From SAR324 cluster bacterium (GTDB lineage: Bacteria > SAR324 > NAC60-12): a DNA stretch of 64,000 bases. Below the pieces are notes generated by a model. It was given only the letters and a program-made list of their open reading frames with translations, had not been told where the DNA came from and made no database searches. The stretch lies in the NCBI GenBank assembly GCA_015232315.1, contig JADFZZ010000004.1:259644-323643 (forward strand), in the 5' to 3' direction. The translations under genes were made by a program, and so were the position numbers. Below are positions 10,777 through 27,342 of the stretch, piece after piece; the first letter of the stretch is position 1, and every line of letters starts with the position of its first letter.

Positions 10777-13700
10777 TCATTTTTCTGTCAGCCGTTCAGA
10801 GCCATTCCAGCTTTCATCAGGAGGTTCCTGTTGATATTTAACGCAACGTGCCAAATAGTTCTGAGAAACAATGTCTTCAGGAAACACGTTCAAACATTCC
10901 TCAAACAGCCGCCGGGCTTCGTTCCATTTCCTGGAAAGATAGAGCTTTAGTCCTTCCCGGTATGGTTTCAGGATTCTTGTTTTCTTCTCCCGAAGGGTGT
11001 TTTCATTGGCATTGAATATCTCATAAATGGTAATGGATTGTTCTTTTCCAAGAACCTTTACAAGGTCGAGTTCCCGCCAAAGAAGCCCTTCCTCATGTTG
11101 AACAAAATTCCACGTCTGGTCAGAAATAATGATTTGTGCGTGATACTTTTTAGTCAATCCTTCCAGTCGGGATGCTAAATTCACGGTATCCCCCAAGACA
11201 GTAGAATCCATGCGATCCTGAGCACCTACAGTTCCAATAATGACCGGGCCGCTATGAATTCCAATTCCCGTCGCGACGGGCGGAATTCCCAGTATTTGGC
11301 GTTGCTGATTGTAGGCCGTCAATACGTCCTGCATGCCGATGGCCGCCTTTACGGCTGAAATAGCTTCCACGGCGTCATTCTGACCGGGAAAATCAAACAA
11401 GGCCATGATGGCGTCGCCAATGAACTTATCAATGAATCCATTATTTTCGTGGATGGGGATCGTCATTTTTTTGAAATAGTCATTGAGAAAATTCAGCAAT
11501 TCCTGTGGCGACATCATTTCAGAGAGAGACGTGAAACCCCGGATATCTGAAAACAGAATGGTAATGGTTTCATGCTCCGCTTTGCCCAATTCAATATTTT
11601 CAATCCCCTCGCTTGCGATTCTTCGAAGAAACTGATTGGGGACGAATTTTTTAAAGGTAACAAGGAATGCTTCTTCTTTTTTAAGGAGTTCCTTCAGACT
11701 TTCGATGGAGTTCTGAAGTTGCAGGTGAAGATTGATCCGACTCAACAATTCAGCTTTATGAAAAGGTTTGGTCAGATAGTCGTTGGCACCACTGTCGAAC
11801 CCTTTGACCAGATCACTGACCTGATTTTTGGCGGTGAGCATCAGAATGGGGAGTTGAGCGGGCGGGTGGTTCTGACGGAGTTTGAGCGCCACTTCATACC
11901 CATTCATACGTGGCATCATCAAATCAAGCAGAACAAGATCCGGATGTTCACTATGAAAAAGTTCGAGGGCTTCAAAACCATCCTGTGCAGTCAAAACCCG
12001 ATAATTGTTTAATTGCAGATGATTTTGCAAAACCTTGATATTGATTGGTTCATCATCCACGACCAGAATGGTTTTCGCTTTGAGTTTATTGTCCTGTTGA
12101 TTTTCCAGAGGCATTAATTCATTCAACGAGAGTGAATGATCATCCTGCTCCCACGAATTAAAACGGATGTGTGCCTGTTTTGCATGAAGACTCTGTTGAT
12201 CTGCGGCTTTTGCCGGAAGGGAGAGATCTTCCGCATAAACGGGTAAATCAAACCAAAAGATTGAGCCTTGACCGGGCGTACTATCCACCAGGATTTTCCC
12301 GCCATGCGCTTCCACCAGTTTTCGCGTGATGCTAAGTCCCAGACCTGTCCCGCCATATTCTCTGGAGGTCGAACCATCGGCCTGTTCAAATACCTCAAAG
12401 ATGCGTTCCTGTTGGTCTGACTGTATTCCGATTCCAGTATCAGAAACCGAGAGCCAAATGCGTGATTCCTGCTGTTCAGCCTTGAGCAGAATTTCTCCCT
12501 GATGCGTAAATTTGATGGCATTCCCGATCAGATTCATAAAAATTTGCTGTAGCCGATTTTCATCCGCATAAACAAAGGGCAGTGTGTCAGGAATCTCCGT
12601 GCGCAGGATAATCTGTTTTTTACCTAGCAACGTAGAGGCGATTTTCAAAACCACTTCCGTAATACTTTTCAGATCCACAGGACGGAATTGCAGTTGCAGT
12701 TCATGATTTTTCATTTTGGAAAAATCCAGAATGTCATTGACCAGGTTGGCCAGACGTTTCCCGCTCTGAATAATGAGTTCCAGATTCTCGGAAGTGGCTT
12801 TGGAAAGTTTTCCAGTGGCGCCATCCACCAGCGATTCCGCCAACCCGATAATTCCGTTGAGGGGCGTTCTCAATTCATGAGACGTATTGGCCAAAAACTC
12901 ATCTTTAAGCTTGTCCACCCGTTTCAGATTTTCCACGGACTGATGTTCGGCTTTCAGCACTTCCTGCTGGGCTTCCAACAGTTTTTGCTGGGCGACAAAA
13001 CGTTCCTTTTTCATCGTATTAACGCGATCGGCCAATCCAAAGGAGAGAAATATCACCTCAAGGGCTGAGCCAATATGGGGTCCATAATTGGTTATGAACA
13101 TCATGGGGAGTATACCGAAACTCCTCAGAGCGGAGGCTAAACCGCCCAACAGGAACAGTGAAAAGGAGAGAAGAAAAAAACGTGCGGGACGACTTCCCTT
13201 GAGAACGGCCAGGAATGAAACCCAAAGGATGATCACATAGGAGTTCATTGCGCTTAATACCACCAGACTACCACTGGTGACTGTATTGACAAAGAGGGAA
13301 AGAGGCATCAGTCCTGCTAAAATAACGGATAAAAAAATCAGTAGCTTATCCCATCCGTGTAATATTTTTGCCGAGTCCACAAAGCTACGGAAAAAACTGA
13401 TTCCCCAAAAACCCGTAAAAGCCAGAAAGAAGGGCAGACTCTTGTTGGTCCAGGAAGGAGAGTCCGGCCATAAATAGCGATAGGCCAGACCATTATAAAC
13501 CATTTGATAAAGAAGCAATCCGGCAGTATGGAGCACATAATACAAATAACTCCGATCACGAATTACTGTAAAAAGAAACAGATTATAAATCAGCATGACC
13601 AGGATCATTCCATAATAAAGTCCCAATCCGGAATGTTCCTCAGTGGAATTTTCCAGAAAGGTTTCTGGATTCCACAACTTGAAACTCATTTGCATGGAAC

Positions 13701-14241
13701 TCTCCGATTTGACCCGGATATAGAGTGTTTGAACATGCTGAGAAGGCAAAGACAACGGGAAGATAATATTTCGATGTTTAACATCGCGTTGCTCAAAAGG
13801 ATACTGATCGCCAGCGGTATATTTCAGAAATGTTCCATCTACCTGCTGAATAAAAAGACTGACATGATCAATAATCGGGAAGGCCTGTTCAAGATACCAC
13901 ATGGTGCTTGATGGCAGAGGATTCAAAACCTGAAGGTATGCCCAATACACGGAATGTGTATTCCCGAAATTTGGAGCATCCAGGGAACCACTTTGAAAAC
14001 TTGATGAAAATTCGGAACTGGAAACCTGTTCAATAGTCAGTTGTCCATCCACATCTTCCAGAAATTCCATATGTTTTCCCAGTGGATATACTCCCTGGGA
14101 CGGGTTGAGTAACAGGGGGGTCGCGGCATAAATCAGGATAGGGTTCATGAGGATCAAGACACAAAAAAACGAGATCATCCTCCTTATTTCTTGAAACCTG
14201 TTCAACAGGGTATTCCTGATATAAATGTAACGACGAAGCAT
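10777..14241 (-). CDS. 7TMR-DISM hybrid histidine kinase with receiver and adenylate/guanylate cyclase domains
   Basis: The 1154-residue product has, in order: a signal-anchor; a 7TMR-DISMED2 periplasmic domain (~50-195); seven membrane helices (~205-405); a coiled coil; HisKA with SHELRTPLNG (His ~455); HATPase with NLIGNAIKFT, DTGIGI and GTGLGLS; a receiver with VVDDEP, LLDLMMP and LTKPF; and a class III cyclase (~890-1070). A short TPR-like tail ends it. The cyclase keeps both metal Asp residues (FSDIRGF, FIGDAIM) and has the Lys/Asp pattern typical of ATP specificity, so cAMP is the likely product. It lies 85 bases downstream of the chemosensory operon in the same direction. The start is uncertain: no good ribosome site precedes 14241, while GGAGG directly abuts an in-frame ATG at 14178. 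Confidence 0.88.
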   Translation of the reverse strand: MLRRYIYIRNTLLNRFQEIRRMISFFCVLILMNPILIYAATPLLLNPSQGVYPLGKHMEFLEDVDGQLTIEQVSSSEFSSSFQSGSLDAPNFGNTHSVYWAYLQVLNPLPSSTMWYLEQAFPIIDHVSLFIQQVDGTFLKYTAGDQYPFEQRDVKHRNIIFPLSLPSQHVQTLYIRVKSESSMQMSFKLWNPETFLENSTEEHSGLGLYYGMILVMLIYNLFLFTVIRDRSYLYYVLHTAGLLLYQMVYNGLAYRYLWPDSPSWTNKSLPFFLAFTGFWGISFFRSFVDSAKILHGWDKLLIFLSVILAGLMPLSLFVNTVTSGSLVVLSAMNSYVIILWVSFLAVLKGSRPARFFLLSFSLFLLGGLASALRSFGILPMMFITNYGPHIGSALEVIFLSFGLADRVNTMKKERFVAQQKLLEAQQEVLKAEHQSVENLKRVDKLKDEFLANTSHELRTPLNGIIGLAESLVDGATGKLSKATSENLELIIQSGKRLANLVNDILDFSKMKNHELQLQFRPVDLKSITEVVLKIASTLLGKKQIILRTEIPDTLPFVYADENRLQQIFMNLIGNAIKFTHQGEILLKAEQQESRIWLSVSDTGIGIQSDQQERIFEVFEQADGSTSREYGGTGLGLSITRKLVEAHGGKILVDSTPGQGSIFWFDLPVYAEDLSLPAKAADQQSLHAKQAHIRFNSWEQDDHSLSLNELMPLENQQDNKLKAKTILVVDDEPINIKVLQNHLQLNNYRVLTAQDGFEALELFHSEHPDLVLLDLMMPRMNGYEVALKLRQNHPPAQLPILMLTAKNQVSDLVKGFDSGANDYLTKPFHKAELLSRINLHLQLQNSIESLKELLKKEEAFLVTFKKFVPNQFLRRIASEGIENIELGKAEHETITILFSDIRGFTSLSEMMSPQELLNFLNDYFKKMTIPIHENNGFIDKFIGDAIMALFDFPGQNDAVEAISAVKAAIGMQDVLTAYNQQRQILGIPPVATGIGIHSGPVIIGTVGAQDRMDSTVLGDTVNLASRLEGLTKKYHAQIIISDQTWNFVQHEEGLLWRELDLVKVLGKEQSITIYEIFNANENTLREKKTRILKPYREGLKLYLSRKWNEARRLFEECLNVFPEDIVSQNYLARCVKYQQEPPDESWNGSERLTEK

Positions 14242-15272: not shown

Positions 15273-17549
15273 CTAGTCCTGCAAATATCGCGTCAGTTCG
15301 GCCACATCCAAAACAAGCGATACACCGCCATGTCCCATGATCGCGCCTCCGGCAATGCCCCGGTGTTTCAAGTGGTCTCCCATTTTGTCAATTTGCAGGT
15401 CTTTCACGACTACCTGTGCTTTTCCCAGCAAACAATCAACCATCAACGCAAATTGATGGTGTCGGTATTCCACCACAATCAAAATCGATTCTTCCGGTTT
15501 TATACATTGAGAAGATGTGTCAAAAATTTCATAAAGACGTACAACTCGTAACATGTGATTGTTGTAGCGTATGACTTCTTTGTGATTTGCTGTAAACACC
15601 TGCCCTGATTTCGGCTGAAAGGCTGTTTTCATAAATTCCATTGGCAGAATGTATTCCTCATTCCCCACTTTGGTATTGATGCCTTCAATAATCAGGAAAC
15701 TACTGGACGCCGGCATCCTGATATGAAAGGTGGTGCCCTTTTCAGGGGTTGTCTCTACGAAAAAATAGCCATTGGCCGATTCAATCAGTTGTTTTATCTG
15801 ACTCAACCCCATGTCGGGCAAAGAGTCTGTCAATGTTGAGGACTCCGTAAAAAATCCTGATAATAAAAGACAGTTTTGCAGTTCTTCTTCAGTGTAGCGA
15901 TCCAGTTCCGCAGAGGGAACCAGTTCCGTTTCCAGAACACGGTGTTTAATCTCAGCCATTGAGATTCCGTTTCCATCATCTGAAATCCGGAAATGCACCC
16001 AGTCATCTTCATCAGAAAAAGCTTCAATCTGCACACTTCCTTTGAGCAACTTGCCTTTGCTTCTGCGTTCCATCGGTGATTCAATGCCATATTCCACCGC
16101 ATGGGCTACAAGATAGAACAGGGGTCGTTCCAACAAATCATGAATACTCTTGTCAATTCTGATTTGACCTCCACGAATCGCCACATCGATCTGTTTTCCC
16201 AATTTATCAGCAACACTGCGCGCGAATCCGGGCAACTTGATAAAAAGGCCTTCCATCGGAATCAGTCTGATTTTCAGCAGACTAGAGATCATTTTCTGGG
16301 AAAGGAGATTGAAAGTCTGGTTTGCCTGTTTGAACCGTTCATGAAGTTCTCTTTCCACGTCAGTCTTGCTCATGGCATTACTGACATATTGAAACATGTC
16401 TGAAACAACAACCAGTTCACCCACAAAATGCATAAACCCATCGATTTCTTCTTCCGCGACACGCATCGTTTTATGTTCTGTCTGAGTGCCGGTGATGGAA
16501 TGCCCCTTCAAAACGCCTGATTGGGATGAAACATTAGAAAAATGAGCCAGTGCCGGCTGGAAAATATTCTTCAATTCCGTCCTGAACTCAGGGACAAATT
16601 TTTGAACACCTGACACCACCTGATCCAGTTTGAGTTCCAGAATCCGAATGATATTCAGTGCTTCACCTGAAATTTTCGGTTTTACGCACACAACCGCGTC
16701 TTTCATTCGTTGCGCGGTACTGACAGGTAAAAATTCTTCTGAGGGACGAAACAGAATATCACGGATCGTGCTGATTTCACCTGAAACATCGATATCCTTA
16801 AAGAAAAAATCAGCGGATTTTCGAAAATTGGATGTTCTGGATGCGGATTGCGAAACAATATTCAATCGAATGATATTATTATGCAGAATTTTGAAATCCC
16901 GATGATTCTTTGTGCTTTCTGGAATCCCTGACTCAAACTCATGAAAAGATTGGATGAAGTTTGGCGCTGTTTTTTCCAGGCTATCGGTCACCAGAATTCC
17001 CAGATGCCGTGCCTGTGCCTCAAGTTTTTGAAACGCGTTAGAACCTTTGACAGATTCAGGCAAGTGGGCGGTCAGAGCATTGAACGCATTGAAAGAAATG
17101 AAGGCTTCCTCTCTCAATCCTCGTTTCTGTTGGCTGAGTTGATCAATCTTGAGCAAAAGTTGATTGAATGATTCCGTATCACGAACTTCGATACGTTCAT
17201 GTTTGAATGTTTCCGCGATATGTTTGAGTCCATTCAATCCACTGATGAGCGTTGAAATCACCATGGAAGACGCTGGAATTTCCTGCTTTGAAATCATTTG
17301 CAGAATAGTGCCCGTTGAGTGAGCCAACTTCTGAAAAAAAACGAGTTGAAAAAATCCGGCCGCATCTCTCATTGAAAAAAAGGAATCAAGAATTTTCCCC
17401 AATATTTCTATGTCTGAATCATACTTTTCAAATTCCAGAAGAAGATTTCCCAACTGATTCAGATTTTCAGCGGAATCCTCCAGAAATTCAAGCAGACTTT
17501 GAAGATCTATAGTGATGTCGGTTGAGGATGTCGGTTGTTCAGATATCAA
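15273..17549 (-). CDS. Degenerate CheA paralogue (probable pseudokinase)
   Basis: The 758-residue product starts at a TTG with GAGG six bases upstream and only 12 bases after cheB. It has CheA order: P1/Hpt-like region (~15-110), linker, P3 dimerisation (VGELVVVSDM, ~375), P4 ATPase-like (~480-610) and P5/CheW-like C-terminus (~615-755). Compared with the operon's true CheA, the Hpt core FHSLKG reads FFSMRD, so the phospho-acceptor His is Phe58. The N-box RNAIDHG reads AHAVEYG, losing the Mg-binding Asn. The GRGVGM glycine loop reads LPDMGL. DDGNGI of G1 remains. It probably cannot autophosphorylate but may dimerise with CheA and bind receptors through P5. Confidence 0.85.
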   Translation of the reverse strand: MISEQPTSSTDITIDLQSLLEFLEDSAENLNQLGNLLLEFEKYDSDIEILGKILDSFFSMRDAAGFFQLVFFQKLAHSTGTILQMISKQEIPASSMVISTLISGLNGLKHIAETFKHERIEVRDTESFNQLLLKIDQLSQQKRGLREEAFISFNAFNALTAHLPESVKGSNAFQKLEAQARHLGILVTDSLEKTAPNFIQSFHEFESGIPESTKNHRDFKILHNNIIRLNIVSQSASRTSNFRKSADFFFKDIDVSGEISTIRDILFRPSEEFLPVSTAQRMKDAVVCVKPKISGEALNIIRILELKLDQVVSGVQKFVPEFRTELKNIFQPALAHFSNVSSQSGVLKGHSITGTQTEHKTMRVAEEEIDGFMHFVGELVVVSDMFQYVSNAMSKTDVERELHERFKQANQTFNLLSQKMISSLLKIRLIPMEGLFIKLPGFARSVADKLGKQIDVAIRGGQIRIDKSIHDLLERPLFYLVAHAVEYGIESPMERRSKGKLLKGSVQIEAFSDEDDWVHFRISDDGNGISMAEIKHRVLETELVPSAELDRYTEEELQNCLLLSGFFTESSTLTDSLPDMGLSQIKQLIESANGYFFVETTPEKGTTFHIRMPASSSFLIIEGINTKVGNEEYILPMEFMKTAFQPKSGQVFTANHKEVIRYNNHMLRVVRLYEIFDTSSQCIKPEESILIVVEYRHHQFALMVDCLLGKAQVVVKDLQIDKMGDHLKHRGIAGGAIMGHGGVSLVLDVAELTRYLQD

Positions 17550-17561
17550 ATTGTCCTCATT

Positions 17562-18590
17562 TCATAAAAATGAAACCAGTTTATGAGGAATGTTATCCAG
17601 CGAAATCAGAAATTCAGCCCCCCCTGATTTGTAAGCTTCACAAGGCATGCCAAAAACCACGCAGGATTTTTCATCCTGAGCCATGGTGCGAGCACCCGCA
17701 CGACGCATGGACAGCATTCCCGCCGCACCATCATTGCCCATTCCGGTCAGGATAATACCAATCGCATTGGCTCCGGCAAAACGGGCCACAGAATCAAAAA
17801 GTACATCCACAGAAGGGCAATGACCACTCACTTTCTCTCCAGGTTCACAATGGACCAGATAGACCCCTCCTGAGCGTTTTACAGTCATCTGCAAATTACC
17901 TGGCGCAAGCAAAGCCTGTCCCGGCATGATCCTGTCTCCATGTTTGGCTTCCTTGACTTTAATCGCGCATTGTTCATTGAGACGTTCCGCATAGGTTTGT
18001 GTGAATCCCGGGGGCATATGCTGCACAATCACGATTCCGGGCAAGGTGGCTGGCAACTGGGTCAGAATCCTGGAAATTGCCTGCACCCCGCCTGTGGAAG
18101 CGCCAATGGCAATCACTTTATCAGTGGAAGTACTCAGGGCTGTGTCCATGCGTACTTTGGCAGGTGTCGGAGTGCGCTGCTTCCAGTGACTGACATCTGT
18201 CATTGAGGCCTGTTTTACTTTTTGGCGAATGTCCTCCAGCATGATTTCCAACCCACGAGCCACATCAGAGCTGGGTTTTGTCACAAAATCCACCGCACCG
18301 GCTTCCAAAGCCTCCATGGTGATGCGTTTCCCTTTTTCGGTCAAGGCACTGACCACCACCACCGGCAGAGGATACTGAGGCATCATATACCGCAAAAACT
18401 GCACGCCATCCATGCGTGGCATTTCAATATCCAGTGTGAGCACATCCGGACGAAGTTTTGCGATTTTTTCTCTGGCGACATAAGGATCAGGAGCAGACCC
18501 CACCACCTGAATTTCCGGATCACGCGCAAGTCCTTCACTTAAAATATCACGCACCAGCGCTGAATCATCAATGACAAGTACCTTGATCAT
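17562..18590 (-). CDS. cheB: CheB protein-glutamate methylesterase/deamidase
   Basis: The 342-residue product has an N-terminal receiver (VIDDSALVRD; phospho-Asp in LTLDIEMPRMDG, ~54; Lys in VTKPSS) and a C-terminal methylesterase domain. Catalytic Ser lies in IGASTGG (~163), His in QHMPPGFT and Asp in TGMGNDGAAG. Once phosphorylated by CheA it removes methyl groups from receptor glutamates, providing adaptation. GGAAAG precedes the ATG. Being the only complete receiver protein in the operon, it is the one obvious CheA phosphotransfer target here. The downstream degenerate cheA begins 12 bases after it. Confidence 0.95.
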   Translation of the reverse strand: MIKVLVIDDSALVRDILSEGLARDPEIQVVGSAPDPYVAREKIAKLRPDVLTLDIEMPRMDGVQFLRYMMPQYPLPVVVVSALTEKGKRITMEALEAGAVDFVTKPSSDVARGLEIMLEDIRQKVKQASMTDVSHWKQRTPTPAKVRMDTALSTSTDKVIAIGASTGGVQAISRILTQLPATLPGIVIVQHMPPGFTQTYAERLNEQCAIKVKEAKHGDRIMPGQALLAPGNLQMTVKRSGGVYLVHCEPGEKVSGHCPSVDVLFDSVARFAGANAIGIILTGMGNDGAAGMLSMRRAGARTMAQDEKSCVVFGMPCEAYKSGGAEFLISLDNIPHKLVSFL

Positions 18591-18627: not shown

Positions 18628-19452
18628 TTATCGTGGAATTTTCTGATAAATCGCGGGGGCAACATACCGATAGGGGCATTTGTCCTTGTCCAGATTTTCT
18701 GTTTGTCCGATGAACAGAAAACCATAGTCCTCTGTAACCTCATAAAAACGCTGTACCAATGCTGTGATTGTCGCACGATCGAAGTAAATCATGACATTCC
18801 GGCAAAAAATGGCATAAAATTTAGATTTAAACACAAATTTGGGGCGGATCAGATTATAGTTGCTGAAGTGAATCAGTTGTTTCAGTTGAGGACGAACTTG
18901 CCATTTTGTTTTATCCAATGCCTGAAAATAGTTTGTTTTATATATCGGGGGAACATTTTTCATCCGGTCGCCGGTATAGATCCCCTTATGCGCTTCCTGG
19001 AGTTTTTCACTATCAATGTCTGTTGCCAGAATACCAATGTCCCATCTTGGTGTGGTTTTTGCCAAAAATTCTTTCAACAACATTGCCAGCGTATAGGCTT
19101 CTTCTCCTGAAGAACAGGCGGCGGACCATATATGCAGATCATTGGTGTCTTCAGTAATATCCCGTGATTTTTTTTGAGGCAGAACATGATTCATCAGATA
19201 ATCAAAATGCTCGTGTTCTCTGAAAAAATAACTGTAATTGGTTGTGATCTGGTTGATGAATTGTTGTAAGCGCTTTCCCTCAGTGTCAGCACGCAGCCAG
19301 GCGTGATATTCACCAAAATCCTTGAGTCCCAATGATTGCACCAGGAATTGAAGACGATTGGATAAAAGTGATTTTTTATCCTCAGTCAGATAAATTCCAC
19401 ACTTTTCATAAGCCAATTGGGCGATTTGCTGGAAATGCTGGTCATTCATCAT
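18628..19452 (-). CDS. cheR: CheR chemoreceptor methyltransferase
   Basis: The 274-residue product has an N-terminal helical domain and a SAM-binding domain with WSAACSSGEEAYTLAM (~105-120) and the family hallmark CRNVMIYFD (~220). It transfers methyl groups from SAM to receptor glutamates in opposition to CheB, which follows 37 bases later. No TPR extension is present. A 150-base gap with a long inverted repeat separates it from the upstream receptor gene. Confidence 0.95.
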   Translation of the reverse strand: MMNDQHFQQIAQLAYEKCGIYLTEDKKSLLSNRLQFLVQSLGLKDFGEYHAWLRADTEGKRLQQFINQITTNYSYFFREHEHFDYLMNHVLPQKKSRDITEDTNDLHIWSAACSSGEEAYTLAMLLKEFLAKTTPRWDIGILATDIDSEKLQEAHKGIYTGDRMKNVPPIYKTNYFQALDKTKWQVRPQLKQLIHFSNYNLIRPKFVFKSKFYAIFCRNVMIYFDRATITALVQRFYEVTEDYGFLFIGQTENLDKDKCPYRYVAPAIYQKIPR

Positions 19453-19602: not shown

Positions 19603-21450
19603 TTAGAATTTCCCAGTGTCCTCATCCCCGAACGAAATAAGATCTTCGCCACTCACTTCATCAGAATGTTTGTGTTTGTGTTCCACGTGAGGGGTGGAAT
19701 AAACTGCTTTTTTGATATGCGGAGCATGGGTGATCTGATGACTTTTGCGCATCGGCAGGGTTTTGGTCTGTGCGGGAGGAGGATTCATGACACTGTTTTT
19801 CAGTTGAAAACGGAAGACCAGCTCTTTGAGATGCTGGGATTGGCCTGTTAATTCCTCACTGGCCGCCGCTGTTTGTTCTGCGACCTGAGCGTTTTGCTGA
19901 ACCACCTGGTTCAGTTGGTTCAGGCCCGTATTGATTTCACGAACGCCACGTGCCTGTTCATTGCTGGCGGTTGCGATTTCATTCACCAGATCTGTCACTT
20001 TGGTGGAGGAGTTGACAATCTCTTTCAGGGAAGAGGCGGTTTCATCCGCCATTTTCGCGCCGGATTCAACTTTTTTTACTGAATCATTGATCATGACAGT
20101 GGTTTCCTTAGCCGCCTGAGCACTGCGTTGAGCCAGATTTCGGACTTCTTCCGCGACAACAGCGAAACCCTTTCCATGCACACCGGCACGTGCGGCTTCG
20201 ACCGCCGCGTTGATTGCCAACACATTGGTCTGAAACGCGATTTCGTCAATGGTTTTGATGATGTGGGCAATGTTGGTGGAGGAATTATTGATTTCTTTCA
20301 TGGCTTCCAGCATTTTTTGCATCTGACGATCACCCTGTTCCGCGCGACGTCTGGCGTCTATCGCGATCTGATTTGCCTGATTCGCGTTTTCAGCGTTGGA
20401 TTTGGTTTGGGAGTTCATTTCTTCCATGGAAGAAGAAATCTGTTCCAGTGACGCGGATTGTTCAGTGGCTCCCTGAGAAATAATCTGACTGGATTCTGAG
20501 ACCTGATGGGCTCCAATGGATAATTGATCCGCAGAGGTGATCACCTGGTGGAGTGTTTCATTAAGGCTTGTAGTCATTTCCTGAATAGCGATCCCCAGAA
20601 CATCCTTATCTGAAGCCAATTGTGTTTCAGCGCTCAAATCCCCTTTGGCAATGCGTTGAGCCACTTTGGTTTTGGCGCTGATGGCATCGACCATGTGCTG
20701 GAAGGATCGTCCCAAATCGCCAAATTCATCTTTGCGGACAGTATCCACCTCAATCTGTAATTCACCATTTGAGAGGGTTTCTGAACCTTTTTTGATGGCG
20801 GAAATCGCTCCAAGAATCGTGCGTGATAAAAAAAACATGATAACCACACCTAGCGCAAAAGCAAAAACGCCAGCACTGAGCAAAGTAATTTTAATGGTGT
20901 GGATCGAACTTGAAATCAGTTCCATGTTGAGCGTGGCTTCGTCAGACTGTTCTGTTTTTAACTGAACCACTTTTTGTTTGATCGAGGCGGCATCCGCATC
21001 AAATGTTTCCATAATGTGGTTCCCCGCGTCTAAGCCCTGATTGATATAGGCCGCTGTCATTTTTTTCCCGCTTTCATAGAACTGGTCAAAGGCCTGTGCC
21101 ATGGCTTCCATGTTCTTTAACTGTGGCAGATTATTTTCTTTGGAATACATTTCACGAAATTGGGAGAGCCTTCGTTTGAAATTCTGGGCCGCAACCTCAG
21201 CATCTCTCAGTCCATCTTTATTATGACTGGCTGATACGTCTGTAAGCCACTGCTGGACGTTTGTTACATTAGTGTCCATCTCTCCGGCGAGTAGTGCAAA
21301 GGGCACACTTTCATGCTTGACCCTGGAGGATAATTGTTCAACTTCATTAAGCATCCACAGACCACCCAGACCCGCAATTCCGAACAGCGCGACAATCGCA
21401 AAAAAACTCACACTCAATTGTAAAGAAATTTTCATATTTTTGAATGACAT
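19603..21450 (-). CDS. Methyl-accepting chemotaxis protein (4HB-type sensor, HAMP)
   Basis: I placed the start at ATG 21450 because GGAGG lies six bases upstream; the frame extends further without support. The 615-residue product has a membrane helix (~10-32), a helical periplasmic bundle (~35-185) with low conservation typical of 4HB sensors, a second helix (~190-212), HAMP, and a long cytoplasmic coiled coil. The conserved hairpin tip reads [23 protein letters not shown] in the usual form, split by the standard turn. There is no C-terminal CheR-tethering pentapeptide; the tail is His- and acid-rich. It signals to CheA/CheW encoded just upstream in the transcript. Confidence 0.92.
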
Positions 21451-21520
21451 TGGAACCTCCGAATATAAGTTAAAAGAACAGGCGAGTTTGAAAGGGAGAC
21501 GTTGGCTTACCATTTGTTGA

Positions 21521-22048
21521 TCACGCCACGGAACCCATTTTTTCCAGGATCTGGATTTCTTCAGGAATCAGAAGATTATCCACATTGATCAGGATATAGA
21601 CCTGATCTTTGGTTTTCCCCATACCGGCAATAAAACGGCTTTGCCCTGAATTCTCCAGATCAGGAGCCGGGTCAATTTCGGTTTTTGGAATACTCACAAC
21701 ACCCGACACAGTATCCGTAATCAGTCCGGTCATAACGCCCCTGATACTGACGACCACAAAGCAGGTCCGGTCATTGTATTCAATTTCATCCATCCGAAAG
21801 CGTAACCGCAGATCAATGACCGGAATCACTTTTCCCCGGAGATTGATCACACCTTTGGTATAAGCGGGCATATGTGGAACTTTGGTAATGCGTGTGTTGG
21901 TATTCCGGATGACAACTTCAAGCACATGATGAATATCAATGCCATACAAACTTTCTCCCAGTGGGAAACTAAGGTATTTACTGTCGGTTTCATCTACGTC
22001 ATCGTTTTCCTGATTCAGCAATGAATCATCCATCTGTCCTTCGTCCAT
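21521..22048 (-). CDS. cheW: CheW adaptor protein
   Basis: The 175-residue product has a single CheW domain (~25-165), with conserved [10 protein letters not shown] and a [15 protein letters not shown] core. An acidic N-terminal extension of about 20 residues precedes it. It links receptors to CheA. GGAGG lies six bases before the ATG. It is located between cheA (64 bases upstream) and the 4HB receptor gene. Confidence 0.95.
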
Positions 22049-22112: not shown

Positions 22113-24671
22113 TCAGTTGCTGGAATGACTTCCCATGCTTGACATATCCAGAATCAACCCTACCTGCCCATCACCAAGAATCGTACAACCCGCAAGATAG
22201 GGAATTTCTGTCATTGATGGTGGTAAGGTTTTTACTACAATTTGCTGCTGTCCGACAATGGCGTCCACAAACAAACAAAACGCGCGTTCAGATGATTCAA
22301 TCACGAGCAACATTCCTCCGGTCAAATCCTGAATCCCGGTTTCTATCTGATACAAACGATGCAGTCGGATAACAGGCAATAACCGGTTTCGGATTCTAAG
22401 CATCTCTGATCCGTCTGGTGTAAGAAAGATATTCGCAGCCTTGGGTTGCAGGGATTCCTTGATGGAAATGGTGGGTAACACATAGGACACCTCGCCCACA
22501 TTCACCAGCAAGCCGTCAATAATACTCAGTGTCAGTGGCACTTTTAAGGTGAAGAGGGTGCCCTTGCCTTGCTGGGTCGCGATATGAATACTGCCACGTA
22601 ATTTTTCAATGTTCTTCTTGACAACATCCATTCCCACACCACGTCCTGAAAACGCGGTAACTTCTGTGTTTGTGGAAAAACCGGGTTCCAGAATCATCTT
22701 CCATAGTTCATGATCAGGCAGATTGGCATCCGGCCCAATCAGATTCTGTTCACGGGCTTTTGCCAGGATTTTTTCCCGGTTCAGTCCCTTCCCATCATCC
22801 TGAATGGTGATCCAAAGTTCATTTCCCACATAGCGAGCTTCCAGAACAATGATGCCCTTATCCGGTTTTTTGGCTGTTTTCCGGCCTTCCTTGTCTTCAA
22901 TACCATGATCAATGGCATTACGAATGAGATGCAACAACGGATCGCTTACCTGTTCAATCAGGCTTTTATCAACTTCAGTTTCTTCTCCCTTCAATACCAG
23001 TTCTACCTGTTTATTGAGTTTTTTGGACGCGTCATGCACAACCCGAATCATTTTGCGGAACACGCTGGCCACAGGGATCATTCTCAGTGACATGGCTATT
23101 TCCTGAAGTTCACGCATATTGCGATGCATCTGGCCTGATACGGATTTCAGTTCTTGTGTGTCGATATAATCCTTATCAAGACGTTGCGCCATCATGGAGT
23201 CTGATATGACCAACTCCCCCACCAGATCAATCAGATGATCCAGTTTATCCAGACTCACCCGAATATCAGAAAGTTGTGGGGTGCCTGCCGGAACATCCGT
23301 TTTAGCGGCTGGCGTTGAGGTCGCGGATTTTGCCTTTTCTATTGCGGGAGTCGCGGGTATCTGGGGCTGAGGAACTGGTTTGGATGCATTCTGAGAAGAA
23401 GCCGGTGTCGTGACAGAAACTGCTGTTGGTGATGCGGGAATTTGAACAGACGGGATCTCCTTGGCTTTTTTATTGGCGGGAATCAGCTTATCCAGAAGAT
23501 TCATGCATTGTTCAAACTTGTTTGTATCTATTTCCTGTCCTGAGGCAATTGCTCCGGATCCATCACGCAAAACATCAATTGTTTCCAATACAGGATTCAT
23601 CACATCACTGTTGATGGACAGCGTTCCATCCTGTAACATCTCCAGCACACTTTCAGCCTTGTGGCTGAGACGTTCAACATGCGCCATCCCCAGAAATCCG
23701 GCATTGCCTTTGATGGTGTGAAAACTGCGTTTTGCGGAATTCAGGAATTCCCCTTTATCGACATCCTCTCCCAGTTTATCCAGAACCAGAAACACACCTT
23801 CGATGGTTTCCAGATGTTCAAGAATATCACTGATGAACAGTTGTATCCGCTCAGGATTTTGTACGGAGCCTGTTGAAAGTGTTGCCGGTTTTGTTATTTC
23901 AGTCGGAGACTGTACATCGGCCTTTTTCGGATCTGGTTTTATATCTGGTGACGCTGTGGATTTTGCGGGTGGAAGTGAATCCTGAGGTGGCAGATCAAAC
24001 AGGGACAAGGGATCCAATTCAACATACAAATTTTCAGACGCGACATGAGGCTCCGAAGCCGGTTCCATTTTTAAAGTCGCATAGCGTTTCAGTTCATAGA
24101 GAATCAGGGTTGCTTCTTCTACGATATTTTCACTTTCAAACAGTGGTAGATATTTACTCATCAAACTTTCCAGCAGACTGCCCCCTTGGGAAAGAACTTC
24201 CTGGATGGAGAGAGTCGGTTTCCATTCTTCATGCTTTACAGGTTGAGTGATTTCGCCCTTCTGGGAAAGCTCAATCATGATATCCAGAGCGTCCAGATGC
24301 TGGCTGATCTCAGGTTCAAAAGCCCGGTCATTTCCTGTTGATTCTACATGATTGAGCAGGTTGTTGACCAGGTCACAGCTTTTTACCAGAATTTCTGAAA
24401 ACCCATATTGCCATTTGTCAGGATTCACCCTGACTTCCTGCAACAGGGTTTCTGTTCGATGGGTGAGTTTTTCAATGTTGTGAAATCCCAGGAAGCCGGC
24501 ACTTCCCTTCAGACTGTGGAACGGACGGAAAATCAGATTGATGATGTCCTGAAGCTCGTGAGCATCTGAAATTCCTTCCATATGAATCAATGCGGGTTCC
24601 ACCGTTTCAATGGTTTCCTGACTTTCGGTGACAAAGTCTATGATCAGTTGCTGATCTTCATTGAATGTCAT
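22113..24671 (-). CDS. cheA: CheA sensor kinase with two Hpt domains
   Basis: I chose the ATG at 24671, with AAGG and GAGG just upstream; a TTG start at 24686 is possible. The 852-residue product has two P1 Hpt domains, each with a phospho-acceptor His (FHSLKG, His ~52; FHTIKG further on), separated by a Pro-rich linker. P3 dimerisation (LVGELVI) follows, then a full P4 kinase core (RNAIDHGIE, QDDGKGL, GRGVGMDVV) and a CheW-like P5. It autophosphorylates in trans and donates to CheB and to outputs not identified here. The first 14 bases overlap the upstream 185-aa gene, showing translational coupling. Confidence 0.95.
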   Translation of the reverse strand: MTFNEDQQLIIDFVTESQETIETVEPALIHMEGISDAHELQDIINLIFRPFHSLKGSAGFLGFHNIEKLTHRTETLLQEVRVNPDKWQYGFSEILVKSCDLVNNLLNHVESTGNDRAFEPEISQHLDALDIMIELSQKGEITQPVKHEEWKPTLSIQEVLSQGGSLLESLMSKYLPLFESENIVEEATLILYELKRYATLKMEPASEPHVASENLYVELDPLSLFDLPPQDSLPPAKSTASPDIKPDPKKADVQSPTEITKPATLSTGSVQNPERIQLFISDILEHLETIEGVFLVLDKLGEDVDKGEFLNSAKRSFHTIKGNAGFLGMAHVERLSHKAESVLEMLQDGTLSINSDVMNPVLETIDVLRDGSGAIASGQEIDTNKFEQCMNLLDKLIPANKKAKEIPSVQIPASPTAVSVTTPASSQNASKPVPQPQIPATPAIEKAKSATSTPAAKTDVPAGTPQLSDIRVSLDKLDHLIDLVGELVISDSMMAQRLDKDYIDTQELKSVSGQMHRNMRELQEIAMSLRMIPVASVFRKMIRVVHDASKKLNKQVELVLKGEETEVDKSLIEQVSDPLLHLIRNAIDHGIEDKEGRKTAKKPDKGIIVLEARYVGNELWITIQDDGKGLNREKILAKAREQNLIGPDANLPDHELWKMILEPGFSTNTEVTAFSGRGVGMDVVKKNIEKLRGSIHIATQQGKGTLFTLKVPLTLSIIDGLLVNVGEVSYVLPTISIKESLQPKAANIFLTPDGSEMLRIRNRLLPVIRLHRLYQIETGIQDLTGGMLLVIESSERAFCLFVDAIVGQQQIVVKTLPPSMTEIPYLAGCTILGDGQVGLILDMSSMGSHSSN

Positions 24672-25215
24672 TCCTTGTCCTCGCAATAAGGTTAGACAAG
24701 GCTTTCAGGCTTTCTTCCCTGTTTTTCCCGGCATATCGTGTTAAAAATTTTTCCATGAGGTGTTTCAGGCTGTTGATCACATCGTTCAGATTGATCAGAT
24801 CAAGCGCGTTCAACTCAGGGCGCAAATAGCAGTTGGCGATGATCAGCATGCCTTCAACCTGGTGCATGGCGTCCAATGTCAAGGGGTTGTCCTTCCAACC
24901 GGGTTCAGTGATAAAATCACGAATTTCCGTACAGAGGAAACTCACGATGGTGGGGCCTTTCCATGCGCCAATAAAACGTAAAAGTTCATCCAGACGGTAA
25001 CTTATTTTCGTGACATGTTGCTGAACCTTTATTTTCTGTGCCCAGTCCGCTCCTGATTCCCGCATGCTATGGCACAGATACATCCAGGAATGTTCCAGGT
25101 CATTCATGTGATAGGTGAGTTCCTGCAGCAAAACGGTTTCAGCGTTAAGGCCGCGCTCTATTTCAAATCGATAACCTGCCTTGTTGCTCAGAATGACATC
25201 AGAAAAACTCGGCAT
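24658..25215 (-). CDS. Unknown protein within the chemosensory operon
   Basis: The 185-residue, mainly helical product has no signal peptide, membrane segment or motif I recognise. It starts three bases after the stop of the first receptor gene, with GGGAGTG upstream of its ATG, and its end overlaps the start of cheA by 14 bases. That tight placement argues it is a genuine member of the pathway. The helical composition and several Leu-rich heptads would fit a four-helix bundle, for example an Hpt-like, CheZ-like or adaptor role, but no phospho-acceptor motif is visible and this is speculation. Confidence 0.75.
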   Translation of the reverse strand: MPSFSDVILSNKAGYRFEIERGLNAETVLLQELTYHMNDLEHSWMYLCHSMRESGADWAQKIKVQQHVTKISYRLDELLRFIGAWKGPTIVSFLCTEIRDFITEPGWKDNPLTLDAMHQVEGMLIIANCYLRPELNALDLINLNDVINSLKHLMEKFLTRYAGKNREESLKALSNLIARTRNDIQ

Positions 25216-25218
25216 ATT

Positions 25219-27342
25219 TTACACTCCCTTGATCAACGCATGAGACGATTGTTTGAGTCTGAATCGAGTTAAAATCTGCTTGAGTTGATGCACCGATTCA
25301 TCAAGATCGGCTGCTGCTGCGGCACTTTCTTCAACGATCACAGAATTGTTGCTGGTCGTGTGTTCAATCTGATTGAGACCAAGGTTAATCTGCTTCACTC
25401 CCGCGGCTTGCTCCTTACTTGCCACAGAAACTTCCGCCATCAGATCACTCATTTTTGAAACCCCCTGAACAATCTCTTCCAGAGATTTTGCTGTTTCCTG
25501 AACAATTTCAATCCCCTGACGCACTTTTTTATTTGAATCATCAATCAGATTTGTGGACTCTCGCGCAGCTTGAGCACTACGTCCCGCCAGATCACGAACT
25601 TCATCGGCTACGACAGCAAAACCTTTGCCAAAACGTCCGGCACGCGCGGCTTCCACCGCCGCATTCAACGCCAGAATGTTGGTATGGAAGGAGATTTCAT
25701 CAATCACTCTGATAATCTGGGAGATGTTGGAACTTGCCTGGTCAATTTCATCCATGGAGTGAATCATGGTTCGCATGCTGGCATCACCCCTGTCTGCTGC
25801 TTTTCTGACTGAAACACCCAACTGGTTGGCCCAATTCAGATTCTCGGAATTCTGTTGAATCTGATGCAGGATGGTCGTGCTTGACGCACCAATTTCCTTG
25901 ACCGCGCTGGCTTGTTCCGTGGCCCCCATTGACAACCGTTGACTGTCTTCAGCAACGGTCCGGGATAATTCCGCGATGGTCTCGGCAATATCAATCACCT
26001 CATGCATGGTACTGTTCAGATTCACATTCATGGTCTGCAACGCTTTTCCTAAAACATCCTGTGGTGATGAAAGCAACGCCTCTGAAGAAAAATCGCCATG
26101 ACTGATTGTTTCAGCCAATTTTACTTTTATTTTCAGGGACTCCAGCATTTTTTTTGTCGCGCCTAACAATTGTCCCACTTCATCCTTAGGAAATTCTGCT
26201 GGCAGAACAACATCCAGTTTTCCGGTCGAGACTTGTTCCAGTACGGTTGTAAGCTGAACCAGTGGTTGCGTGATTTTTTGAGAAATCCACAAAATAACCA
26301 GTGTCGCGACCACCAGCATTCCCAGCAACATTAGCAGGATGGCAATTTTAAGTTCACTCAGCGAAACACTTCCTTCGAGTAACATCTCATACGGTTTGAT
26401 CTGCGCGACACTCCAGCCAAACGTAGGCAGAGGTTGATATACCACATAATAGGTGATTCCATTTTCTGAATAGGTCCCTTTCCCGATTTTTCCGGATTTC
26501 ATATCAACAAGAATATTCCTGAAGTCAGAATTTTTGCTGATCGAATCCACCGAAGGAAAATAATCTTCGATTTTATGTTCATCATCAACAGTTGTTCCAG
26601 GATTCAGATCAATGGAAATATCTTGATGGCTGTCGGCGATGATCCTGTTTTCAGGGTCCAGTACAAAAGTTCTTTCGGGTGTGTCGTGTCCAATAATTTC
26701 CTGAAAAAAGGCCACAGGAATTTCAAAATGAAAAAAGGCGGGTTTGGAGCCATCATCCAGGATAATAGGGGTGGTATAAGCAAACACCCATTTTTTATAG
26801 TCCGCGGACATATACGGATAGGCGATATGAACTTCTTCATTTTTTAAATTAAAACTCGGTTCAAAAAAAGGTGCCTCATTTTCTTCACTGGAAAAATCAT
26901 CATCCGGGGCGATTTCACGGAGAGTCAGACGTGAATGCTCCTGACCAGTCCGGTCAATCAAACAGGTTTCAACGACTGGAAAACGACTCTGGATATACAT
27001 AATCCATGCGTCCAGTTTGTTTTTTAAAGCACGTTGAGCTTCAGTGAACTGAATCACCTGATTACCATCCTGTTCCTCATACCTGTTTCCAGCCCTGGTT
27101 TCAGGAAGATCAAAATACTCCTTGAATACAGGATATTGCACTGTCAGCACCAGGTCACTCTTCGCTTTATCGTGGAACACCTTGAGTTGGGATTCTTTCT
27201 GACGCAAATCATTCTCCATTGTGCGTAACGCATTGGCAATGATGGCGTTCTCTGTGATTTTGAATTCAATAAGGACACTGCCTCCCAATGTGAGACAGAG
27301 CAATCCAAGAAACGCGGTCAAAAATTTATATTTGATCTTCAT
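25219..27342 (-). CDS. Methyl-accepting chemotaxis protein with periplasmic double Cache sensor
   Basis: The 707-residue product is the first gene of the chemosensory operon, with GAGG upstream of its ATG. It has membrane helix 1 (~8-28), a large dCache-like sensor (~35-345), helix 2 (~352-375), HAMP and a cytoplasmic signalling domain whose tip reads [23 protein letters not shown] in the standard form split at the turn. Note His where most receptors have Gln. There is no CheR pentapeptide at the C-terminus. The sensor is paralogous to the secreted protein at 14327-15208, suggesting a shared ligand class. Confidence 0.93.
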   Translation of the reverse strand: MKIKYKFLTAFLGLLCLTLGGSVLIEFKITENAIIANALRTMENDLRQKESQLKVFHDKAKSDLVLTVQYPVFKEYFDLPETRAGNRYEEQDGNQVIQFTEAQRALKNKLDAWIMYIQSRFPVVETCLIDRTGQEHSRLTLREIAPDDDFSSEENEAPFFEPSFNLKNEEVHIAYPYMSADYKKWVFAYTTPIILDDGSKPAFFHFEIPVAFFQEIIGHDTPERTFVLDPENRIIADSHQDISIDLNPGTTVDDEHKIEDYFPSVDSISKNSDFRNILVDMKSGKIGKGTYSENGITYYVVYQPLPTFGWSVAQIKPYEMLLEGSVSLSELKIAILLMLLGMLVVATLVILWISQKITQPLVQLTTVLEQVSTGKLDVVLPAEFPKDEVGQLLGATKKMLESLKIKVKLAETISHGDFSSEALLSSPQDVLGKALQTMNVNLNSTMHEVIDIAETIAELSRTVAEDSQRLSMGATEQASAVKEIGASSTTILHQIQQNSENLNWANQLGVSVRKAADRGDASMRTMIHSMDEIDQASSNISQIIRVIDEISFHTNILALNAAVEAARAGRFGKGFAVVADEVRDLAGRSAQAARESTNLIDDSNKKVRQGIEIVQETAKSLEEIVQGVSKMSDLMAEVSVASKEQAAGVKQINLGLNQIEHTTSNNSVIVEESAAAAADLDESVHQLKQILTRFRLKQSSHALIKGV

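Follow-up and report, generated by a model that had tools for sequence, protein, structure and literature searches.

The DNA examined here is a 64,000-nucleotide stretch, called the window below, of a SAR324 cluster bacterium (GenBank assembly GCA_015232315.1, contig JADFZZ010000004.1, positions 259,644 to 323,643 of the forward strand), and it contains a chemosensory operon with two cheA genes. One of them, cheA1 (22113..24686, minus strand), codes for the operon's intact CheA, and the other, cheA2 (15273..17549, minus strand), codes for a full-length CheA homologue which appears from its sequence to be catalytically dead in both the phosphoacceptor domain P1 and the nucleotide-binding domain P4. 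We regard it as an even call that CheA2 is a pseudokinase which forms homodimers and, making no phosphate itself, takes up the places of CheA in receptor arrays. A first-pass annotation, made from the letters of the window, had already described a full-length CheA that is dead but retained in the operon, and had suggested a structural or inhibitory partner; the alignments below bear out the catalytic loss at the level of sequence, and such a role is still the likeliest function.

Catalytic residues lost and retained in CheA2

The cheA2 reading frame starts with TTG 12 bases past the stop codon of cheB, with a ribosome-binding-like gaggac just upstream, and is open over its whole length to give a protein of 758 amino acids; the coordinates of the first-pass annotation are exact, as are strand and frame. 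From the N-terminus the protein consists of P1, an Hpt-fold domain (residues 14-135, 17145..17510), a helical insert of the CheA2 family that holds no conserved His (residues 136-355, 16485..17144), the P3 dimerisation hairpin (residues 359-427, 16269..16475), P4 with the GHKL fold (residues 428-614, 15708..16268) and the CheW-like P5 (residues 615-758, 15276..15707), all on the minus strand. P3 is recognised by PF02895 (25.2 bits, cut-off 23), the GHKL fold of P4 is followed by the CheW-like P5, and the fold of every domain, P4 included, is retained in the AlphaFold model. CheA2 is therefore best classified, as far as such comparisons can tell, as a CheA by descent and architecture whose sequence no longer fits a functional CheA kinase.

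In the P1 core, FHSLKG has become FFSMRD (H58F, which removes the acceptor His, with K61R and G62D), and a further P1 loss is E80G. All five catalytic residues of the N-box (residues 475-490, RPLFYLVAHAVEYGIE, 16080..16127, minus strand) are changed, namely H479Y, R482A, N483H, D486E and H487Y (RNAIDHG to AHAVEYG), and in the G2 region (residues 573-590, LTDSLPDMGLSQIKQLIE, 15780..15833, minus strand) the loop at 577-580 reads LPDM in place of GRGV (GRGVGM to LPDMGL), with D583S also lost. The three motif changes named in the first-pass annotation are thus all present; missing from its inventory were the losses E80G, H479Y and D583S and the survival of the G1 and G3 boxes and of H77. In the alignment of P1 and P4 against other CheAs that it had proposed, here with 20 of them (the P1 core being missing in two rows and the G2 Val position being Ile in two), the changes in P1, the N-box, G2 and D583 are exclusive to CheA2.

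The same is seen in a wider comparison, where eight P4 residues lost by CheA2 are kept in 277 of 277 other CheA rows and in 157 of 157 rows of a smaller set, and where the column of the P1 acceptor holds His in 270 of the 277 rows, a gap in six and Tyr in one. The single Tyr row is L029, a CheA of the source genome itself, whose HSIKG-bearing Hpt was aligned elsewhere. The 277 rows comprise the 120 matches listed from each of three overlapping searches (330, 325 and 297 hits) together with the CheAs of the source genome and are not a random sample of CheAs; their strings are distinct, 16 groups have identical last 400 residues, and one row, P0157, is CheA1 again.

Nine intact CheAs share 38 universal P4 columns, 23 of which are kept by CheA2, and the kept residues are distributed as three of eight in the N-box (five lost), three of ten in G2 (seven lost), two of three in the F-box, four of four in G1, two of two in G3 and nine of 11 in the rest. 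Since the N-box and G2 are lost but G1 and G3 are kept, the phosphate and metal side of the site would be destroyed and the adenine side and the framework would remain. The lost N-box Asn aligns to N409 of Thermotoga CheA 1b3q (numbering of that chain), a residue which we take to coordinate Mg. The G1 box survives as DDGNG, so the adenine pocket of CheA2 may still bind nucleotide. Autophosphorylation is predicted to have been lost.

Two candidate explanations of these differences were rejected. One is a relocated acceptor, since the first-pass annotation would have given way to another conserved His in the Hpt helix. CheA2 does retain H77, a second histidine conserved in P1, but all 50 aligned rows have it, among them CheAs in which the acceptor His is present too, and H77 is therefore no acceptor that has moved; no His of the insert is conserved. 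A sequencing or frameshift artefact was likewise dismissed, because the changes are in frame, the flanking residues align and a second sequence, P0011, is in the same state.

A separate CheA family under selective constraint

The reading of CheA2 as a degenerate duplicate of CheA1 was rejected. Its five full-length or near-full-length orthologues in the protein search are 37-43% identical to it over 90-99% of the length (514-640 bits) and belong to another family than CheA1, which is 24% identical overall; the next matches after these five are general CheAs at 221 bits. All five orthologues keep the N-box and G2, and the four that contain a P1 core keep the His, P0015 beginning past that core. 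A search with the family profile gave no extra orthologues and no P4-dead member among the 120 of 325 matches listed. In a genome search in which the best candidates of each genome were scored, three of 57 other genomes hold CheA2 at E 1e-60, and when the search is confined to the 51 genomes that share at least the class of the source genome, the three with CheA2 all have it intact. In the tree the CheA2 proteins form a clade with support 100, with weakly supported placement inside it (29-72). CheA2 is therefore a member of a distinct CheA family of SAR324-type bacteria, separate from that of CheA1. The ancestral residues are found in the outgroups as well as in the orthologues, and the clade has full support, so the catalytic loss is derived; it is seen in one lineage only. 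Sharing of the losses by homologues, which the first-pass annotation had proposed to survey, is thus not general, and among the matches listed only the near-identical P0011 shares the dead state.

The three genomic orthologues differ in their surroundings. In G004, which like G010 is of the same family as the source genome, CheA2 with one methyl-accepting chemotaxis protein (MCP) gene adjoins an opposite-strand cluster for MCP, a CheY-like protein, a CheA1-type CheA, CheW, MCP, CheR and two CheB. The G005 orthologue has a separate operon, in which it is flanked by a ParA-like ATPase and CheB and is adjoined by CheR, CheW and a CheW-receiver protein; as a separate observation, the ParA/MinD-like ATPase in this operon (C55, L017, 8377-15527) suggests positioned arrays there. 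In G010 no chemosensory domain was found by Pfam in ten other open reading frames scanned on its 16.6-kb contig (C302), where a STAS-domain gene follows the intact CheA2 (L015, 13026-15705) and a CRISPR-Cas cluster lies further off.

Loss in CheA2 is selective, with fast change in P1 and P4 and constraint retained on P3 and largely on P5. Of the columns invariant in the active orthologues, CheA2 keeps 31 of 33 in P3 and 36 of 42 in P5; for P1 and P4 the counts are 22 of 48 and 46 of 75. P5 keeps 14 of 14 universal residues, in agreement with the earlier statement that the dimerisation and CheW-like domains are intact. The branch ratios of P1 (0.70) and P4 (0.80) make them the fastest parts, and P3 evolves no faster than in the active orthologues. 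The codon score is alike across the domains (0.70-0.75), and the guanine + cytosine (GC) content at third positions is 0.37 in the P1 part against 0.42-0.47 in the other parts. The second dead copy, P0011, is 99% identical, also has 758 residues and shows seven internal differences, none of them in the N-box, G1, F-box, G2, G3 or P1 core; one is R428K, at a residue which is Arg in 275 of the 277 other rows.

The chemosensory operon and the other CheAs of the genome

On the minus strand the genes follow each other as MCP1 (25219..27342; its sensor part dCache-like, below the Pfam cut-off), P0007 (24658..25215), cheA1, cheW (21521..22048), MCP2 (19603..21513), cheR (18628..19452), cheB for a receiver and methylesterase protein (17562..18590, directly upstream of cheA2), cheA2, P0009 (14327..15208) and a gene for a 7TMR-DISM histidine kinase with a receiver and an adenylate/guanylate cyclase domain (10777..14241). 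From cheW through cheA2, neighbouring genes are spaced by 12 to 150 bases. CheA1 has two Hpt stretches and intact P3-P5, and its only near-identical match among those listed in the third protein search is its own sequence (P0157, zero differences). No stand-alone CheY was found among the ten operon-region genes scanned. The 7TMR-DISM kinase, receiver and cyclase protein downstream of the che genes is a possible output of the operon, and P0009, a stand-alone protein, resembles the sensor part of MCP1 (P0008) by BLAST, that is, a receptor sensor domain as a separate protein.

P0007, an uncharacterised protein of 185 amino acids directly upstream of cheA1, has no Pfam or NCBIfam match above the cut-off, and when folded alone it gave a predicted local distance difference test (pLDDT) score of 57.5, too low for a fold search. 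Five of its eight matches in other genomes (G004 C164, G005 C36 and C37, G010 C152 and C440) lie, by coordinates, just upstream of a CheA1-type cheA; it seems to be a conserved chemosensory component without known function.

The source draft genome (5.25 Mb) is that of a signalling-rich organism: it has no fewer than 13 CheA homologues, and 150 scored candidates out of 268 gave 151 receiver-domain matches. Its own CheAs were matched at 46 places, from which the 12 others spanning P3-P5 were taken; four more that extend beyond P4 were left uncounted because Pfam shows no CheW-like domain in them. P4 is intact in all 12, and 11 have a His-bearing Hpt. The remaining one, L022 (G000:C50, 215-1696), is a 493-amino-acid CheA with no Hpt by Pfam which starts 214 bases from the contig end, and a split CheA may exist in this genome. 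L062 (G000:C4, 1056-3143), of 695 amino acids, carries a C-terminal CheZ domain over the cut-off and a weak HATPase-like stretch.

A proposed array role, its alternatives and its precedents

The question of which partner CheA2 dimerises with bears on any role. Its P3 is 61-68% identical within the family, 13-23% identical to the 12 other CheAs of the genome and 17% identical to that of CheA1, and the P3 hairpin has 53 residues in all seven CheA2 proteins against 47 in CheA1; on these grounds homodimers through its own P3 are the likely form and pairing with CheA1 is less likely. The first-pass annotation had raised the possibility of heterodimers. In such a pair the dead subunit would be joined to CheA1 via P3 and would inhibit the kinase dimer or make it asymmetric. 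This idea draws on the shared, closely spaced operon, and in Azospirillum brasilense CheA1 and CheA4 interact, with P3 exchange suggested at 59% P3 similarity in the relevant part of PMC6759762. We nevertheless think it unlikely, not only from the divergence just given but also because the P3 of CheA2 has not drifted towards that of CheA1 (the orthologues' P3 is 17-24% identical to it) and because the G005 orthologue, whose operon is separate, retains the same P3.

Judging by the conservation of P5 and the operon context, CheA2 may be integrated into arrays with CheW and MCP. In the mechanism that we propose, P3-P3 homodimers of CheA2 would form, would bind CheW and MCP tips through P5, and would join or extend arrays which also hold CheA1, taking CheA places beside it; such filling would lower or tune how much kinase output there is for each receptor and how strongly active units are coupled. 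In Escherichia coli, according to the part of PMC5181776 concerned with it, core units are coupled through interface 2 between CheW and P5, and when this interface carries lesions in adaptation-deficient cells, cooperativity is abolished and kinase activity is unchanged. Azospirillum CheA1 and CheA4 form mixed baseplates, so two CheA paralogues can share arrays, and neither is described as catalytically dead in the corresponding sections of PMC6759762, unlike CheA2. It is from this role of the interface and these shared baseplates that an effect of CheA2 dimers on output beside CheA1 is inferred. More specifically, and as a tentative proposal that we hold a little short of even, CheA2 may be a dedicated kinase-null CheA in which P1 and P4 are both dead and which is maintained for its P3 and P5; it would act as a dummy core-unit component setting active-kinase density and coupling.

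Several observations weigh against such a homodimeric array filler. The 53-residue hairpin occurs also in 10 of 152 other rows, including L025 of the same genome (P3 23% identical), so its length alone is no proof and another partner is possible. P5 of CheA2 is only 30% identical to that of CheA1, so sharing of CheW and arrays with CheA1 is drawn from the operon; P5 is also slightly faster on the CheA2 branch (0.32 against 0.24 and 0.27 in the two orthologues scored), and the helical insert is modestly accelerated (0.35). In addition, R428K in P0011 indicates that drift at conserved P4 sites may continue, and with one dead lineage known (P0001 and P0011) the dead state is not established as old or fixed.

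The last two points lead to the view that cheA2 is a recently inactivated gene in decay, with the stop codon yet to come, and the restriction to a single lineage with two catalytic domains hit and intact copies elsewhere, as well as the low third-position GC of the P1 part, would fit it. Decay is nevertheless improbable, and we rank it slightly below the heterodimer, since P3 is no faster than in active orthologues, the universal residues of P5 are complete, the frame is open behind a ribosome-binding-like site with an even codon score, and the near-identical second sequence has also kept its 758 residues. A somewhat better but still unlikely alternative, which we place just above the heterodimer, is that P1 and P4 are not passive and have been repurposed as a protein- or nucleotide-binding sensor in the manner of DivL; the retained P4 fold with its adenine side, beside a lost phosphate side, would suit this, and in Caulobacter a histidine-kinase catalytic domain has been repurposed as a sensor (PMC4211667), but P1 and P4 are the fastest parts, and a new binding site under conservation would not be expected to change so quickly, even if positive selection might leave a similar picture. 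That CheA2 is instead an active kinase with an unusual site and another acceptor residue is very improbable: the G1 box and predicted folds are kept and Ser59 and H77 lie within P1, but the N-box Asn, the other scored N-box residues and the G2 glycines 577 and 579 are gone, H77 is present in active CheAs too, and the His-less Hpt domains of Pseudomonas aeruginosa ChpA are not phosphorylated in vitro according to the passage on them in PMC10782961.

By analogy, the closest precedent for the proposed kinase-null CheA2 appears to be CheA3 of Rhodobacter (Cereibacter) sphaeroides, which, in the account of PMC10782961 as far as it concerns this protein, has a non-functional kinase domain and a live first Hpt, shares its operon with the working CheA4 and is located in arrays. 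The earlier remark that no precedent is known was therefore too strong. There are differences, since CheA3 keeps its phosphorylated first Hpt and has a P4 without helices (PMC10782961, same part), whereas CheA2 has a dead P1 as well, a complete predicted P4 fold and a self-sufficient neighbour. CheA2 has no live N-terminal Hpt, the acceptor His being absent and no insert His conserved, and the operon holds no P1-less CheA4-like partner; CheA1, with its two Hpt stretches and P3-P5, needs no P1 donor because it has Hpt domains of its own.

Looser likenesses exist in other systems. Vibrio ParP is not known as a CheA relative with P1, P3 and P4 and, unlike CheA2, tethers arrays to ParC, and Caulobacter DivL is not known to belong to the CheAs or to carry a CheW-like domain. 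Through its AIF domain ParP contacts MCP and CheA, becomes part of core units in this way and favours the formation of arrays, as the relevant text of PMC5706961 has it, and CheA2 may work like such an array component. DivL resembles CheA2 in being a histidine-kinase homologue termed a pseudokinase in the parts of PMC12471899 and PMC9430884 that deal with it, and ChpA resembles it as a CheA in which Hpt domains lack the acceptor His but, unlike CheA2, retains other His-bearing Hpt domains (PMC10782961, in part). Among the open-licence papers listed in the literature searches, none was seen to name a CheA of full length that has lost the function of P1 as well as that of P4, and a printed precedent may exist. 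In a survey of thousands of CheA sequences the kinase domain was the most conserved CheA domain, and P1, P3, P4 and P5 were treated as universal, according to the section of PMC10782961 on that survey.

If the proposed reading of CheA2 as a kinase-null array component is true, a CheA dead at both catalytic ends and constrained at its assembly domains would be a natural separation of the scaffold and kinase roles and the chemotaxis counterpart of eukaryotic pseudokinase scaffolds. With a natural protein at hand and its intact orthologues as matched controls, it would also become testable what number of active kinases an array requires and whether cells dilute them deliberately.
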